Shown piece after piece: positions 14,727 to 22,980 of a DNA stretch of 32,594 bases. Made by a program: the position numbers and the translations under genes. Each line of letters opens with the position of its first letter. The first letter of the stretch is position 1. This DNA comes from Thermodesulfobacteriota bacterium (GTDB lineage Bacteria; Desulfobacterota; Thermodesulfobacteria; Thermodesulfobacteriales; Thermodesulfatatoraceae), in NCBI GenBank assembly GCA_013153725.1, contig JAADDY010000038.1:1-32594 (forward strand). The letters run 5' to 3'. The notes under the pieces were generated by a model that was not told the origin of the DNA, did no database searches, and worked only from the letters and a program-made list of their open reading frames with translations.

Positions 14727-15710
14727 ATGCCTTCAAAGTTTTTGCCAAAAGTAAAAGATGCTCTTGGTCTGGTCAAAGAGGGAGAAATAGTCTCGGCCAA
14801 CGAGGCTTTCTTGAGACTCTTCCATCTCGAAAGTCTCCCGATCACGCTCGGGGAACTCTTCGAAGACCACTTCGAAGATTTTGGCCTCTTTGAAACCCGC
14901 GCCAAAAGGCCCGATGGAAGTATGTTCGAGGCCGAGGTAGTCCTCCTGCCATACCGGGAAGGCTTATACCAGCTCCTGGTACGGGATGTGAGCGAGAGAC
15001 GGGCCACCGAGAAAATGTGGCTCAAAGCCGAACGCCTCACCGCCATGGGTAAACTGGCCGGAGAGATCGCCCATGAAATCAACAATCCGCTGGGAGGAAT
15101 CCTCCTTTACGCCAACCTCTTACGAGAAGACCTTCCGGTCGAAAGCCCACTCCTCTCGCACGTGGACAAGATCATCAAACTGGCCACCCGCTGCCGCATC
15201 ATCGCCAAGGCGTTGCTGAACTTTGGGCACCCTGAAGACAGCCTGGAAGAATGGGTAAACGTCAACCAGGTTCTCCAGGAGATGTTCTCTTTGATCGAAG
15301 ATCACCGGCTTTTCCGTGAAGTTCAGATCATCTGGGAGCTGGAAAAAGACCTCCCCTTCGTGCAGGGCAATCGCAGCCAGCTGGAACAGCTCGTTCTCAA
15401 TCTCATCATCAATGCCGGGGAAGCCATGCAGGGACGCGGGAGCCTCTCCTTCCGTACGAAGTTTGACCCCGCCGAGGAGGAGATCATCCTTGAGATCGAA
15501 GACACCGGGCCGGGAATTCCCTCCGAAATCCAGGACAAGATCTTCGACCCCTTCTTCACCACCAAACCCGGCGGGAAGGGCACGGGCTTGGGGCTTGCCA
15601 TTTGTCACGGTATAGTCAAGAGACATCGCGGCCAGATCGAATTCGAAAGCCGCCCGGGGAGGACCCTTTTCAGGGTAAAGTTGCCGAAGATCCACCTGGA
15701 AAATGAATAA
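14727..15710 (+). CDS. Soluble NtrB-like sensor histidine kinase
   Basis: This 327-residue kinase has no transmembrane segment. Residues 1 to about 95 look like a PAS domain ending in VRDVSERR, followed by HisKA with phospho-accepting His116 in [14 protein letters not shown], then the ATPase with N box ([13 protein letters not shown]), G1 box (DTGPGIP), F box ([10 protein letters not shown]) and G2 box (GTGLGLAI). It should phosphorylate the sigma-54 regulator whose gene overlaps its 3' end by 8 bases. The PAS domain probably senses a cytoplasmic signal, which the sequence does not reveal. A TATAAC lies 21 bases before the ATG with no good -35. Confidence 0.93.
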
Positions 15711-17046
15711 AGAGAAGATCCTCATCATCGACGACGATCCCGCTATCCGGGACGCCTGTTTCCAGGTCCTGACCAGGCGGGGCTACGAAGTGGACCTCGC
15801 CGCCCGCCCGGAGGAGGCCCTGGATCTCCTGGGGCAATTCGAATTCGACGTCATCCTGCTGGATCTCAAGATGCCCGGCATGAACGGGCTTGATCTTCTG
15901 AGAAACATCAAAGAGATGGACCCGCACGCCGAGGTGGTCATCATCACGGCCTATGGCACGGTGAGCAACGCCGTGCAGGCCATGAAGAACGGGGCGAGCG
16001 ACTTCCTCCAGAAACCTTTTGGCCCGGAAGAGCTCAAGCTGGCCGTGGAAAAGGCCCTCGAACGGCGCCGGCTCACCCTGGAAAACATCTACCTGCGCCG
16101 GGCACTGGCTGAAAAAGAGGGCCAGGTGGTGATCATTGGCCAGAGCCCTGCCATCCGCCAGGTGCTTGAGATGGCCAAAATGGTGGCCCCCACGGATTCT
16201 ACCGTCCTTATCACCGGAGAGTCCGGCACGGGTAAAGGGCTTCTGGCCCGCAAGATCCACGAGCTGAGCCCCCGTGCCAAAGGCCCCTTTGTGGCGGTGG
16301 ATTGCGGCACGCTGGTCCCCACACTTTTCGAGAGCGAGCTCTTCGGCCATGTCAAAGGGGCCTTCACCGGGGCAACCACCCACAAGATTGGCAAGTTCGA
16401 ACTGGCCAACGGTGGCACCCTCTTCTTCGACGAGATCGGAAACATCTCCATCGATATCCAGGCCAAGCTCCTGAAGGCCGTGGAAGACAAAGAGATATCG
16501 CCGGTGGGAAGCCACCGGGTCACCAAGGTAGACGTGCGCATCATCGCCGCCACCAACAAGAACCTCGAAGAGGAAATCCGAAAGGGAACCTTCAGAGACG
16601 ACCTCTTCTACCGCCTGAACGTCGTTTCCATTCACATCCCTCCCCTGCGGGAGAGGGCCGAAGATATTCCCCTCCTTGCGAGATATTTCCTGCAAAACTT
16701 TGCCCACAAATATCGCAAGAAGATCTACGACTTCGACAGAGAAGTCCTCGAAAAGCTCACCGCCTACTCCTGGCCGGGAAACGTCCGGGAGCTCGAAAAC
16801 ACCATCGAACGCCTGGTGATCTTCGCCAAGGGAGACCGCATCACCCTGGACGACTTGCGACTGGCAGGATTCAAGACCGAAGAGGCCGAACTCCTGGAAG
16901 ATGACCTTCCGCTTGAAGAAATCGAAAAGCGCTACATTCTGCGCATCCTGAGGCGCTGTGAGGGAAACAAGAGCAAAGCCGCCAAAATTTTGGGCATCGA
17001 TCGCAAGACCCTCCGCGAAAAACTCCGCCGCTGGGGATTCGACTAA
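15703..17046 (+). CDS. NtrC-family sigma-54-dependent response regulator
   Basis: This 447-residue regulator has three domains. The receiver has acidic residues Asp10-Asp12 and phospho-acceptor Asp54 (LLDLKMPG). The AAA+ domain has Walker A GESGTGKG at 172-179, the sigma-54 loop GAFTGA at 219-224, Walker B TLFFDEIG at 239-246 and arginine-finger region FRDDLFYRLNV. The C-terminal Fis-type helix-turn-helix ends in KAAKILGIDRKTLREKL. It activates promoters used by sigma-54 RNA polymerase after phosphorylation by the partner kinase, whose gene overlaps it. I saw no convincing -24/-12 promoter in the window, so its targets are probably elsewhere. Confidence 0.95.
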   Translation: MNKEKILIIDDDPAIRDACFQVLTRRGYEVDLAARPEEALDLLGQFEFDVILLDLKMPGMNGLDLLRNIKEMDPHAEVVIITAYGTVSNAVQAMKNGASDFLQKPFGPEELKLAVEKALERRRLTLENIYLRRALAEKEGQVVIIGQSPAIRQVLEMAKMVAPTDSTVLITGESGTGKGLLARKIHELSPRAKGPFVAVDCGTLVPTLFESELFGHVKGAFTGATTHKIGKFELANGGTLFFDEIGNISIDIQAKLLKAVEDKEISPVGSHRVTKVDVRIIAATNKNLEEEIRKGTFRDDLFYRLNVVSIHIPPLRERAEDIPLLARYFLQNFAHKYRKKIYDFDREVLEKLTAYSWPGNVRELENTIERLVIFAKGDRITLDDLRLAGFKTEEAELLEDDLPLEEIEKRYILRILRRCEGNKSKAAKILGIDRKTLREKLRRWGFD

Positions 17047-17278: not shown

Positions 17279-19009
17279 GTGGCCCAAAACAATTTCATTC
17301 TGGCCCAAATTCTCGCCAAGGCCACTTCCAGGCCGGCCCTGGAGAACACCCCCTTCCCTCGTTACGTAAGATATCTGAAAAGTACCTCTCAGGGGCCGGG
17401 CTGGGACCTGGGAGGTGAGGTTCCCACCGCTTTCGGAAGGGCCTTCCTCTCAGACGGACGGATGGTGGAAGTTTATACTCCCCTCAGGTCTCTGGTGGAC
17501 TATCTGGCCCGGCGAAAAGACATCGAGAACGGGCTCTATCAACTGCAAGGGGGCAAAATTCTGGCCCTGAAAGAGCTCCTTCCGGAAAACGCCCTCGAGA
17601 ATCAGCCCCGGGAAATGCCGTTCACCCTCTCCCTGGGAAAGAGACTCTTCTGTGTCGTACCCCTCAAGAACAATCTTGGAGAAACTTTTGGTTACTACGT
17701 TCGCGAAGCCCGCGTCTCCTATCTGAAAAATTTCGCCTACGCCCTCTTCAAACGCAACGCCCTTCCCACCATCTTCTTTCTGGGAGTGGCCCTGGTTATC
17801 GCCCTTATGCTGACCAGACATTTCGTCTGTATCCCGCTCAACAATCTTCACACTCAGCTAACACGCATTTCCCAGGGAATCGGGAAGAGGCTCCGGGAAG
17901 CGGTGAAAGAAAAGATCATCGAGGCCCCGGGGAACGACGAAATATCTGCCCTCGCCCGCACCATCAACCAGCTCGTGAAGGAACTAGACGAACTGGCCTC
18001 CTTCAGACAGGCCATCGAAATGGACGAAACCCCCCTTGAGATCTACCATCGTCTTCACCGCGTCCTGACCAGCAGATTCGGCCTCTCAAATTTTGTCATC
18101 TTCGAGATCTCCAACAGTCAGAACCGTATCACCCCGGTGGTTACCGAACCTCCCCACTTGCTGGAGGAGTGCTGCCTGCGTGATATAAACCAGAATCCGA
18201 AACTCTGCCGGGTCTATCGCAGTGCTTCACGGGCAAGCTCCCTCCACTTCACCGAAACCTGTGAATACTTCCGCCACAAAGAGCTGAACTATATTTGCCT
18301 CCCTCTCTGCGTGGGAGGGAAGGTCATCGGCATCATCCACTTCCTCTTGCCGATGGAATACGCCTTAAAGGAGATGCAGCAGGCCATCATGGACAAGGTC
18401 CTGGCCTACATCAAGGAGGCTGCCCCCATCATCGAGGCCAAAAGATTCGCCGAAAGCCTGCGAGAGATGTCTTTTCGAGACTCCCTCACCGGTCTTTACA
18501 ACCGCCGCATCCTCGACGATCTCATCCCTCAGGTAGCAGCGGGGATCGTCAGACGAGAAAGCAACCTCGGCATTATCATGTTCGATATCGACCACTTCAA
18601 AATCTTGAACGACACTTACGGTCATTCTTTTGGCGACAAGGTCCTGGCCAAAATCGGCGACATCATTCGTTTCCAGCTTCGCAAGAGTGATTTTGCCATC
18701 CGCTTCGGTGGAGAAGAATTCCTGCTCTTGTTGGTAGATGCCAAACCGGGAAGCACCCTTCAGGTGGCGGAACGTCTTCGTCAACACATCGAGACCAGTG
18801 CTTTCGTCTTTGAAGGCAAAATGGCCACCGTGACCATCTCGGCAGGGGTGGCCGAATTCCCCCGGGATGATACCAACCTCTGGAACGTCATCAACTTTGC
18901 CGACGTGGCCCTTTACCGGGCCAAGGCCATGGGACGCAACCGGGTGGTAAGGTTTGAAAAGAGTTTCCTGAAGGAAGAATTAAAGCAAACGGATGAAAAG
19001 AAGTCTTAA
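17279..19009 (+). CDS. Membrane-bound diguanylate cyclase (sensor-HAMP-GAF-GGDEF), 5' end frameshifted
   Basis: As annotated from GTG 17279 this is 576 residues. Order: the rest of a periplasmic sensor domain (about 1-150), transmembrane helix 162-180, HAMP 180-240, a GAF-like domain 250-385 with six cysteines (298, 299, 310, 328, 340, 344), and GGDEF 398-565. The active site is GGEEF at 477-481 and the inhibitory RxxD site is Arg468 to Asp471, so cyclic di-GMP synthesis with product feedback is expected. The true start is probably ATG 17088 in another frame; the GTG start would leave the periplasmic domain without its first membrane anchor. The 3' end overlaps the convergent gene by 30 bases. 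It follows the NtrBC pair by about 40 bases. Confidence 0.85.
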   Translation: MAQNNFILAQILAKATSRPALENTPFPRYVRYLKSTSQGPGWDLGGEVPTAFGRAFLSDGRMVEVYTPLRSLVDYLARRKDIENGLYQLQGGKILALKELLPENALENQPREMPFTLSLGKRLFCVVPLKNNLGETFGYYVREARVSYLKNFAYALFKRNALPTIFFLGVALVIALMLTRHFVCIPLNNLHTQLTRISQGIGKRLREAVKEKIIEAPGNDEISALARTINQLVKELDELASFRQAIEMDETPLEIYHRLHRVLTSRFGLSNFVIFEISNSQNRITPVVTEPPHLLEECCLRDINQNPKLCRVYRSASRASSLHFTETCEYFRHKELNYICLPLCVGGKVIGIIHFLLPMEYALKEMQQAIMDKVLAYIKEAAPIIEAKRFAESLREMSFRDSLTGLYNRRILDDLIPQVAAGIVRRESNLGIIMFDIDHFKILNDTYGHSFGDKVLAKIGDIIRFQLRKSDFAIRFGGEEFLLLLVDAKPGSTLQVAERLRQHIETSAFVFEGKMATVTISAGVAEFPRDDTNLWNVINFADVALYRAKAMGRNRVVRFEKSFLKEELKQTDEKKS

Positions 19010-20386
19010 CTCAAAGTCTCCGTTTTCGCTTCCGATCCCGAAAAGCCCCTTGAGGATCCTGAAACGCCAGCCCTTGGGTTTGCGATGAAAAGAGAGAAGA
19101 AAGGCAAGCTCTACGATGTCTTCCTCATCGGTATGGTCGTGACGATAAAGCCCCCACAGAGCCTTGGAACGAGTAAAGCCGTTCGGATCCTGAACGTACT
19201 CGTAGAGTCGAAGAAGCGGGGCGATGGTGCGGTCTATCCCTTCGGAATGGAAAGGTAAAAGGGCCGGGAAGAAGAATATCTCGAAGCCGTCGTCGCGCTT
19301 TATTTGCTCTCCGAGAGGCCAGACCCGCGAGAACTGATATTTGAGACGGCCCTTTTCGTCTTTCACCTTCTCAAATTTGGTGAGCAACAGAAAAGTGCGG
19401 GTTTCCCGATGAAGCTCTCGCTCCTTGTGTCGAACAACGTCGTAGCGGTAAGTGTAGAGTGGCCAGAAGACAAAGTGAGAATACTCGTCTTTTGTTTTGC
19501 GGTAGCCCAGGAGGGGCCAGAAGCGTCTCTCACGGTAGGTGATTTTTTTGCCCTCGCCGTAACGGAAAATGGGCCATGGGAGATCCCAGGAGGTCACGTC
19601 GTTTTTATCGTGGCGGAAATAGCGAAAAAAGGGCCAGAAAAGGATGTAGCGTCGATGAAATTCGCTTTTCTCTTCCACCCAGAGAGGCCAGAACATATCC
19701 CGTGTTACCGTTCCATCCCCGAAGTAGAACTCCTCGTGCCAGAAGAAAGGCCACAGGAAAAAAGTGCGATCGTAAACCCCTTTCTTGATCTTGTGACTGT
19801 AAAAGGGCCAGAACTTGCGCTCGTAAAAGGTGGGGCCATCCGTGCGGTTGTAGATGGGCCAGAACCAGGTGCTGGAAACGTTACCATCAAAGCGGGATTT
19901 GACCCTGATAGGCCAGAAATAAAAACGCACTTCGTCTCTTCCGCCCCAGTTCAGGAGGCGACCATAGATGGGAAAAATGCCCCAAAAGGATTCGTCTTCC
20001 TTGGTTTTCCCCCAGAAGATGAGCCCAAAATTGTGGTATTTCTTGTTCTCGTTGATGTTTGAATTGCGGGCCCAGATAGGAACCAACCGGAGCCTGGTGT
20101 AATCCTGGCCTTCCTGGTAATGCCCCAGAGGAGGCAGAAAGTACACGTCGTGGCGTTCCTTGCGGTCCACCACCGCCAGGAAGGGCCTGAAGGCGGAGCC
20201 GCTTTCCGCCTTGGTTTCGTAAGCGTAATAAAGCGGCCCAAACAGCTCGAGCTCTCTCACGGAGCCGTCTTTTGATTCCTGAAAGAAGAGGAAGGGCCAC
20301 CAGTTATGACGTACACGCCCCTCCTGCGCCGCCACAGACGACGCCCAGCAGAGAACCAGGAATAGGAGGAGATACTTGCGCGGCAC
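18980..20386 (-). CDS. Exported Trp-Pro-repeat protein of unknown function, downstream of mlaD
   Basis: This 468-residue protein starts at GTG 20386, with AAGGAGG overlapping the mlaD stop 10 bases upstream. Residues 1-20 are a Sec signal peptide ending near Val-Ala-Ala. The mature protein is rich in Phe, Trp, Tyr and Arg and carries a repeated F-W-P-hydrophobic-aromatic motif. Between residues 158 and 308 there are nine Trp-Pro pairs spaced 17 to 21 residues, with degenerate copies before (30, 51, 85, 103) and after (356). The alternation of aromatic and charged segments suggests beta-strands or hairpins, perhaps an outer membrane or periplasmic beta structure. I do not recognise a named family. 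Its place at the end of the mla cluster suggests an envelope role. Confidence 0.8.
   Translation of the reverse strand: MPRKYLLLFLVLCWASSVAAQEGRVRHNWWPFLFFQESKDGSVRELELFGPLYYAYETKAESGSAFRPFLAVVDRKERHDVYFLPPLGHYQEGQDYTRLRLVPIWARNSNINENKKYHNFGLIFWGKTKEDESFWGIFPIYGRLLNWGGRDEVRFYFWPIRVKSRFDGNVSSTWFWPIYNRTDGPTFYERKFWPFYSHKIKKGVYDRTFFLWPFFWHEEFYFGDGTVTRDMFWPLWVEEKSEFHRRYILFWPFFRYFRHDKNDVTSWDLPWPIFRYGEGKKITYRERRFWPLLGYRKTKDEYSHFVFWPLYTYRYDVVRHKERELHRETRTFLLLTKFEKVKDEKGRLKYQFSRVWPLGEQIKRDDGFEIFFFPALLPFHSEGIDRTIAPLLRLYEYVQDPNGFTRSKALWGLYRHDHTDEEDIVELAFLLSFHRKPKGWRFRILKGLFGIGSENGDFELRLLFIRLL
19460..19915 (-). repeat. Nine Trp-Pro repeats inside the exported protein gene
   Basis: The segment encodes residues 158-309, where Trp-Pro recurs at 158, 176, 193, 212, 233, 251, 271, 290 and 308 (steps 18, 17, 19, 21, 18, 20, 19, 18). 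On the plus strand this shows as GGCCAGAA or close variants every 50 to 65 bases. The linkers differ in sequence, so the repeat is protein-level rather than a recent DNA duplication. Confidence 0.8.
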
Positions 20387-20396
20387 CCCCGCCTCC

Positions 20397-21455
20397 TTAC
20401 TGCAGGACCATGGTTCCTATCGTCCCCAGGATCGTCACGGGTACCTGTTCTTGGAGACCGGTGGCCGCCTGGTTTACGTTCCGCAGAGTCTTTTTGGCCT
20501 CCAGATAGAGACTGTCATCGTTGATAAGCCTCCCGAGGGTGCCTTCCCCGCGTTCGATCTTCTGCGCGATCTTGCTGAGAGAGTCGAAAGTGGCGTTGAG
20601 CTTGTTATAGAGCTCTTCATCACTGATCAACTTGCCAAGGGTGCCTTCGCCCTGCCCGATCTTCTTGGCCACCTCGCTCAGGGTGCTGGAGGCCTGGTTG
20701 ATGGTGGAAATGGTCTGCTTGAGGTCCGCATAAAGCTCGTCATCGTTGATGAGTTTGCCCAGCGTGCCTTCACCTCGATTCAGCTTGGCAGCCACATCAC
20801 TGAGATTAGCGGCCAGCCTTTCGATCTTGACGTAAAGGGTCTCGTCGGTGAGAAGTTTCCCGATGGTGCCTTCACCCTTTGCCAGCCTCTCCCCCACTTC
20901 TTTGAAGGCCGCGGCGGCGTCTTTTATGTTCGCCACCATTTGCCTGAAATTATTCAACCCTTCCTCGGAACCCAAGAGTTCTTTGAGCCCGGCAGTGATC
21001 TCCCGCAGGTTTTGAATGGCGGGCCCCACTTCTGCCAGGATCTGATCGAGATCCACGGGTGAGATGGTCTTGGCAATCATGGCCCCGGGGGGCAGATATT
21101 CCGGGCTCCTGCCCTGACGAATTTCCACGTAGCGATCCCCGAGAACCCCTTTGGTGCGTACCATGGCCACGGCGTCTTTGGCGATCTTCACTCCTTCGTA
21201 AATGCGCATCTCCACCAGAGCCTTGCCGTCGGTAAGAGAGATACGAGAAACCCGACCAATCTCCACTCCAGCCATTTCAACCCGCGCCCCTTCCACCAGA
21301 CCGGAGACGTTTTCAAAAACGGCCTTGAGAGGATAAGTCTTCTTGGTGGAAATTTTCTCTTCCCCCAGTTGAAGGCTTAGATAAGCTAGAGCAAGAAGGG
21401 CTATCAAAACGAAAAGCCCAACTTTGATTTCCAGCCCTTTGTCAGTTCTTCTCAT
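20397..21455 (-). CDS. mlaD: MlaD-like MCE-domain protein with C-terminal repeats
   Basis: This 352-residue protein is anchored by one N-terminal helix (about 11-30) with the rest in the periplasm. Residues about 39-115 form the single MCE domain ([21 protein letters not shown], later VLGDRYVEI). The C-terminal half is predicted helical and carries four copies of GEGT[LI]G[KR]L...D..LY starting at residues 194, 228, 269 and 303. MCE proteins form hexameric rings that carry phospholipid between membranes with the MlaE/MlaF ABC transporter. ATG 21455 has AAGGAGG upstream and overlaps the mlaF 3' end by 14 bases. At 352 residues it is about twice the length of E. coli MlaD. Confidence 0.92.
20505..20876 (-). 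repeat. Four Gly-Glu-Gly-Thr repeats in the MlaD C-terminus
   Basis: The region encodes residues 194-317. Each unit reads GEGT[LI]G[KR]L[IL] followed by a short acidic stretch and L-Y, then a helical linker. Unit starts are 34, 41 and 34 residues apart; 41 is 34 plus one heptad, as expected if the linkers are packed helices. The DNA copies are similar but not identical (seen as GTGCCTTC blocks on the plus strand). Confidence 0.85.
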
Positions 21456-22200
21456 TTTTTTCCTCCTTACAACCTGTTGGCAAAGCGGTGATAAAACTCC
21501 TTACGAAAGGATGTTTTGAGGCCTTTATCTTTTCGGGAGGACCTTCCTCAATGATTACTCCCTCATGCAAGAAGGCGATCTTGTCTGCGATGGCAAAGGC
21601 TATCGGAACATCGTGGCTGATGACCACGCAGGTAAGACCGTGCTTTTCCTGGGTCTCTTCTATGAGTCGGGCAATGCTCTCCTGCATCAAAGGATCCAGC
21701 CCGGTAGTGGGCTCGTCAAAGAGAACGATCTCCGGGTCCAGAGCAAGGGCTCTGGCCAGAGCGGCCCTCTTTTTCATTCCTCCGGAAAGTTCTGAGGGCA
21801 TCTTGTCTATCGCTTCGATCAAACCCACCTGGGCCAGCTTGACCTCGACCCGGGCCCAGATTTCCTTTTCCGAAAGGTTCGTATGCTCTCTCAGTGGAAA
21901 GGCGACATTCTCTCCCACCGTCAAGGAATCGAACAGGGCACCTTCCTGAAAGAGCATGCCAAAACGTTTGCGAATCTGCATGAGCTCTTTTTCACTCATC
22001 TGCGTGATATCCTGGCCGTCGATCAGGATCTGACCTTTGTCCGGGGGGATGAGCCCGATGATGTGCTTCAAGAGAACACTCTTTCCCGTACCGCTCCTGC
22101 CCATGATGAAAGTGATCTTCCCTTTCGGGATATCCAGATTCACTCCTCGGAGGACTTTCTGTTTCCCAAAAGATTTGTGGAGATCTACGATCTTTATCAT
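21442..22200 (-). CDS. mlaF: Phospholipid ABC transporter ATPase MlaF
   Basis: This 252-residue ABC ATPase has Walker [16 protein letters not shown]-loop [12 protein letters not shown], signature [15 protein letters not shown], Walker [15 protein letters not shown] and the His switch VISHD. The LSGGM-KR signature and the EGALFDS segment are typical of MlaF/Ttg2A. It powers the MlaE permease at the inner membrane. ATG 22200 lies 9 bases after the mlaE stop, with AGAGG upstream, and the stop codon is inside mlaD, so the three genes form one unit. Confidence 0.95.
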
Positions 22201-22209
22201 TATTGGCCT

Positions 22210-22980
22210 CTAGAAAAGGAGAGAAGTAAGGATGTAATCGGCAATCAGAATGCTGATTGACGAAATAACCACCGCCTGTGTGGTAGCTTTCCCAACTCCT
22301 TCGGCTCCACCTCGGGCATTATAACCTTTAAAGCAACCCACTACAGCCAGGATGGCTCCAAACACGAAGGCCTTGTAAAGCCCGTTAATGATATCGACTA
22401 GCTCCACCAGCTCTTTCATTTTACTTACAAAGACCCCGGCATCGATGTGGAGCAAAATGACACCCACGAAGTATCCTCCGGCGATTCCTACCAGATCTGC
22501 CAGAACGGTGAGAAGAGGTACCATCAAAACTGCCGCCCAGAATCTCGGAACAACCAGATAGTGGATGGGGTTTACCGCCATCACCCGCAGAGCGTCTATC
22601 TGTTCTGTAACACGCATGGTGCCGATTTCAGCCGCCATGGCCGAACCGGCCCGCGCCGTTACCATCAGACCGGTGAGAACTGGCCCAAGCTCCCGCACCA
22701 GGGAAAGGGCCACCGTTGCCCCCAGGAGACTCTCTCCTCCGAATTTGCGGAAACCATAATATCCCTCTAGAGCCAGGACCATCCCCGAAAAAAGCCCTGT
22801 TAGCACCACTACGAGAGTAGACTTAACCCCCACAAATTCCATCTGCTTAATGAACAGCCGCAAACGAAAGGGGGGCTTGAAGGTGAGGCCCAGAGTTTGC
22901 AAGAACATAAGGGCCATGCCACCCATCTCTTCTAATATGCTGATAGTGAAGGCACCCAGAGCAGCTACCGGGTTATACAC
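22210..22980 (-). CDS. mlaE: Phospholipid ABC transporter permease MlaE
   Basis: This 256-residue permease has five or six hydrophobic segments. It carries the MlaE signature region LVRELGPVLTGLMVTARAGSA followed by EIGTMRVTEQIDALRVM, which contacts MlaF. The start is GTG 22980 with GGGAGG about 8 bases upstream. It is the first mla gene; the 157-base AT-rich gap before it, after mtaB, may hold the mla promoter (TTGACG on the minus strand at 23061-23056, but no convincing -10 at the right distance). Confidence 0.94.
   Translation of the reverse strand: MYNPVAALGAFTISILEEMGGMALMFLQTLGLTFKPPFRLRLFIKQMEFVGVKSTLVVVLTGLFSGMVLALEGYYGFRKFGGESLLGATVALSLVRELGPVLTGLMVTARAGSAMAAEIGTMRVTEQIDALRVMAVNPIHYLVVPRFWAAVLMVPLLTVLADLVGIAGGYFVGVILLHIDAGVFVSKMKELVELVDIINGLYKAFVFGAILAVVGCFKGYNARGGAEGVGKATTQAVVISSISILIADYILTSLLF

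Follow-up and report, generated by a model that had tools for sequence, protein, structure and literature searches.

A secreted protein with Trp-Pro repeats, hereafter the WP protein, probably forms the end of an MCE lipid bridge on the side of the outer membrane, where a long MlaD would dock on it. Its gene lies in the window, that is, the whole stretch of 32,594 nucleotides analysed (contig JAADDY010000038.1 of a Thermodesulfobacteriota bacterium, GCA_013153725.1). Since the WP protein replaces known outer-membrane parts of the Mla system across the phylum, it probably constitutes the missing outer-membrane end. In the proposed mechanism, MlaE and MlaF would drive the system from within the inner membrane, and the long MlaD, presumably as a hexamer, would span the periplasm by means of a helical needle. 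The conserved C-terminal tail of MlaD may dock on the WP protein, which would sit on the periplasmic side of the outer membrane; there, phospholipid would pass between needle and outer membrane, both the passage and its direction being putative. The WP protein would therein take the role of MlaA, or that of the C-terminal barrel fused to MlaD elsewhere, and the long MlaD most likely makes an MlaC shuttle unnecessary. The first-pass annotation had suggested a beta-structured, exported MlaD partner that handles lipid in place of MlaC or MlaA; the all-beta structure, the export and the mla linkage held, as did the replacement of MlaA (or of the fused barrel), while that of MlaC appears less likely.

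The WP gene (18980..20386, minus strand), defined by its open reading frame and its homologues, starts with GTG and encodes 468 amino acids. Upstream of the start the sequence reads CTGCAGTAAGGAGGCGGGG-GTG, in which the ribosome-binding site AAGGAGG (20392..20398, minus strand) overlaps the mlaD stop codon TAA, leaving a gap of 10 bases between stop and start. Residues 1-20 (20327..20386, minus strand) form a signal peptide with a probable cleavage between AA and QEG, as judged from the sequence and from the export signals of homologues. The mature protein contains 11 WP dipeptides, whereas 20,000 shuffles of the protein average 1.2 and never exceed 6. Nine of the dipeptides are consecutive, from W158 to P309 (19460..19915, minus strand), at steps of 18, 17, 19, 21, 18, 20, 19, and 18 residues; this block is delimited by the spacing, by DSSP of the AlphaFold model, and by covariation. 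The start close behind mlaD with a strong ribosome site on its stop, the signal peptide, and the nine motifs at steps of 17 to 21 residues, all read from the sequence at first pass, were thus borne out. Differences from the nearest homologue number 80/48/277 at codon positions 1, 2, and 3, which identifies the minus strand as coding; a plus-strand open frame of 252 amino acids inside the gene (19304-20062) is therefore regarded as a shadow of the WP repeat. The gene converges with a GGDEF/HAMP gene (17279-19009, plus strand), the 3' ends overlapping by 30 bases (18980-19009), and this diguanylate cyclase gene is adjoined by a histidine kinase and sigma-54-dependent response regulator pair at 14727-17046.

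The other genes of the cluster, all on the minus strand and assigned with Pfam and NCBIfam, are mlaD (20397..21455), the ATPase gene mlaF (21442..22200), and the permease gene mlaE (22210..22980). PF02405, a MlaF-type ATPase, and PF02470 occur in adjacent genes, making up an MlaE-MlaF-MlaD core. Genes of the mla type move lipids between the two membranes of the cell envelope, and phospholipid transport by the present core is putative. The MlaD is of a long type (352 amino acids), with a transmembrane helix, an MCE domain, and a long helical region, but without a fused barrel. Its helical region (within 20400-21455) carries about four copies of a GEGTLGKL repeat, which is conserved in long MlaDs. 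In a model of the MlaD monomer, the MCE domain is good and the needle has low confidence, for which reason the model is not taken as proof of the needle.

A survey of 75 loci, with a single locus for most genera, addressed the linkage of the WP gene to mla, which holds for most loci across 69 genera. The common order is mlaE-mlaF-mlaD-WP, co-directional, with the WP gene ahead of mlaE in seven loci. Family f34 keeps mlaD and the WP gene together, behind an epimerase gene and a TPR gene and with no mlaEF adjacent; three further loci (L110, L150, and L152) have WP-mlaE-mlaD operons without an adjacent mlaF. No other genes were found to recur co-directionally beside the WP gene across families, and the apparent clusters of conserved neighbours mostly turned out to be either antisense shadows of mla genes or housekeeping genes local to a lineage. 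A homologue search of the kind that the first-pass annotation had recommended thus shows the gene staying beside mla throughout the phylum, rather than mostly away from it; the exceptions are seven examined loci, all from one order. In Thermodesulfobacterium-like genera of the organism's own order (g5, g6, and g9), the gene is located elsewhere in the genome. In one genome that is 92% complete (G026, L153:1-11383), a WP gene is present and MlaD and MlaE were not detected.

Searches of Pfam, NCBIfam, and PDB sequences gave no match for the WP protein, the models for MlaA (PF04333), MlaC (PF05494), and PqiC/ABC_trans_aux (PF03886) included, and tblastn against plasmids gave none either; no characterised Mla component like it was known at first pass. 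No description of the family was found in the literature searched, the coverage of which was partial. Homologues occur in 47 of 60 genomes among relatives and in 115 of 395 genomes sampled across the phylum (69 genera, 28 families), the counts covering the organism's own phylum. A pattern scan of genome contigs, with a very specific pattern, returned the own order only, including Thermodesulfatator, Thermosulfurimonas, Thermodesulfobacterium, and Caldimicrobium.

The own order has MlaD and MlaE but neither MlaA, which the organism's own genome lacks too, nor MlaC, and PqiC is either missing or scores below the cut-off. Across the phylum sample, MlaA occurs in 17/115 genomes with the WP protein versus 192/280 others, and MlaC in 20/115 versus 206/280, with Fisher odds ratios of about 0.08 phylum-wide and p-values that are only indicative because the genomes share ancestry. 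Both kinds of components coexist in 24 genomes, which carry the WP protein plus MlaA and/or MlaC; in those examined, MlaA/C are encoded at a separate locus with a short MlaD of its own.

Three arrangements can thus be distinguished. In the first, a short MlaD goes with MlaC and MlaA, the MlaD frames at such loci measuring 150-219 amino acids (22/22 examined were short). In the second, the WP protein goes with a long MlaD, typically of about 320-370 amino acids, the WP-linked open frames measuring mostly 300-400. In the third, an MlaD of about 460-640 amino acids carries a fused C-terminal beta domain; most of the 67 genomes without WP protein and without MlaA/C have an MlaD of this size. The fused domain was present in all 20 long MlaDs examined (L218-L237), has about 170 residues of beta-barrel-like sequence, and has no Pfam model. 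Of 380 genomes of the phylum, 69 match a profile built for it; 17 of these 69 also contain MlaA and/or MlaC, and not one contains the WP protein. Fifteen genomes are left over; they are often incomplete, and two of the MlaDs inspected run off a contig end. Derivation of the WP protein from the fused barrel by excision was rejected for lack of homology (hhalign probability 0.1%), and the WP profile gave no match against the 20 fused MlaDs. In a tree of the MCE region only (104 rows), the MlaA/C-type MlaDs form one supported branch and the WP type and fused type are intermixed, which needs several switches, their number being approximate because many forks are weak. The genomes in the alternation counts are not independent, as shared ancestry partly remains despite these switches.

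A C-terminal tail of the long MlaD (20400..20459, minus strand), with the pattern EQxPITVLGT, marks the MlaDs that have a WP partner. It occurs in 62/62 WP-linked MlaDs, a count that is descriptive because these tails were already known when the regular expression was composed. It is also present in 6/6 MlaDs from own-order genomes with an unlinked WP gene and absent from 22 MlaA/C-type and 20 fused-type MlaDs (0/42), and neither the six nor the 42 were used in writing the expression. The tail is the best candidate for a docking element on MlaD. Such comparative evidence points throughout to a partnership with MlaD and nowhere to contact with lipid, as would also be expected of a structural or regulatory accessory of MlaD, such as a collar, a stabiliser, or a peptidoglycan guide for the needle. 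This reading seems unlikely, since the WP protein alternates with MlaA and with the fused terminal domain, both of which are found at the outer-membrane end, which suggests a place at the end of the needle and not along its shaft.

Hydrophobic export signals are kept throughout the 118 homologues of the WP protein. In about 32 of these, a lipobox cysteine immediately precedes the mature domain, as counted by eye from the N-termini after discarding regular-expression matches inside the hydrophobic core, and they belong to eight families (f4, f7, f12, f16, f20, f22, f41, and f53). Residue +2 is never Asp, and according to the +2 rule, established in Enterobacteria, lipoproteins without Asp at +2 are sorted to the outer membrane, where these homologues would thus be expected. 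The protein of the window and those of its own order lack the lipobox and have an ordinary signal peptide, so that an outer-membrane location of the former rests on its homologues.

The AlphaFold model of the WP protein (23 rows; mean pLDDT 89.4, pTM 0.71) contains about 45 strands averaging 6 residues. Independently of this model, gap-filtered, centre-scanned mutual information over 119 homologues, which replaced a mean-field DCA on the same 119 rows that was dominated by gappy columns, gives antiparallel covariation peaks between W and P, and second peaks half a repeat away that correspond to polar turns, with low values in between. By model and covariation alike, each Trp-Pro is a turn, and the protein is predicted to be a single-layer antiparallel beta-meander with one aromatic edge (L-W-P-L/F-F/Y) and one charged edge. 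Foldseek found no global fold match, the query-normalised TM-score being at most 0.23, and only local matches to single-layer meanders, and with such scores no known fold family was named. Structure prediction of the protein alone, which had been proposed at first pass, therefore yields an all-beta meander that no solved fold matches globally.

The observations on export and fold also bear on whether the WP protein could instead be a soluble lipid carrier in the periplasm, moving back and forth between MlaD and the outer membrane as a substitute for MlaC. It is exported and has no lipobox in the organism itself, and MlaC is absent. However, it has a long MlaD as its partner, and in other families that lineage of MlaD reaches a fused beta domain without a carrier; moreover, the lipoprotein forms in eight families are ill-suited to shuttling, and a single-layer meander with strands of about 6 residues offers no obvious MlaC-like pocket, which makes a carrier quite improbable. 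An equally slim chance is given to an integral outer-membrane beta-barrel that would form the pore of the bridge. The protein is all-beta and rich in aromatic residues, several close homologues have an aromatic last residue, and the domain that it replaces is probably a barrel elsewhere. Nevertheless, strands of integral outer-membrane barrels have about 9-11 residues, whereas here they average 6 with a WP turn every ~19 residues; the best fold matches include no barrel, the lipoprotein versions argue for a peripheral protein, and homology to the fused domain was not detected. That the WP protein is an unrelated exported protein merely sharing an operon, as its separate location in the Thermodesulfobacterium-like genera might suggest, is extremely improbable in view of the linkage in many families, the exclusion of the fused barrel, and an MlaD tail that predicts the WP protein even when the genes are unlinked.

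A terminus at the outer membrane, the reading preferred here, has parallels in known systems. MlaA (PF04333), an outer-membrane lipoprotein in E. coli, likewise serves the outer-membrane side of MlaEFD, and the WP protein is a lipoprotein in eight families; however, MlaA is helical and the WP protein is all-beta, they share no sequence match, and the WP protein goes with long, not short, MlaDs. For Veillonella, a transenvelope MlaEFD with a C-terminal beta-barrel fused to MlaD has been proposed (Grasekamp et al. 2023, PMC10665443). This type shares with the present one the long MlaD, the lack of MlaA and MlaC, the three-gene mlaEFD core, and a beta-type domain at the outer-membrane end, but in the present system a gene of its own encodes the terminal beta part, which has another predicted architecture and no homology to the fused domain of this phylum. 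Most long MlaDs are reported to be barrel-less, and unidentified or accessory proteins have been suggested as their partners (PMC10665443); the WP family is a candidate for such an accessory partner. The PqiC/ABC_trans_aux lipoprotein (PF03886) of Pqi and type I MCE operons (PMC10897342, PMC5561183) is likewise encoded apart from, and downstream of, the periplasm-spanning MCE protein that it partners at the outer membrane, although the WP protein does not match PF03886 and, in the own order, PqiC-like proteins do not exceed the cut-off. Brucella Mpc (PMC12436622), described as a chimeric system that combines homologues of Mla and Pqi parts, resembles the present system as a proposed lipid-moving bridge between both membranes, but neither Pfam nor NCBIfam assigns the WP protein to an Mla or Pqi family. 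Single-layer meanders, such as OspA, the CPAP/TCP10 G-box, and MORN repeats, have a similar local hairpin-after-hairpin geometry and a repeat of about 20 residues, but neither a global match (query TM-score ≤0.23) nor a sequence relation.

Taken at its broadest, the reading would be that MCE lipid bridges end at the outer membrane in a new protein family of new overall fold, which bacteria have repeatedly exchanged with an unrelated fused barrel; we give this reading slightly less than an even chance. The outer-membrane end of the lipid bridge would then be a replaceable module, consisting of MlaA with MlaC, of a fused barrel, or of the WP protein. The WP family would provide, in one large phylum, a concrete candidate for the receiver of barrel-less long MlaDs, and the MlaD tail a sequence mark that may predict which genomes use it.
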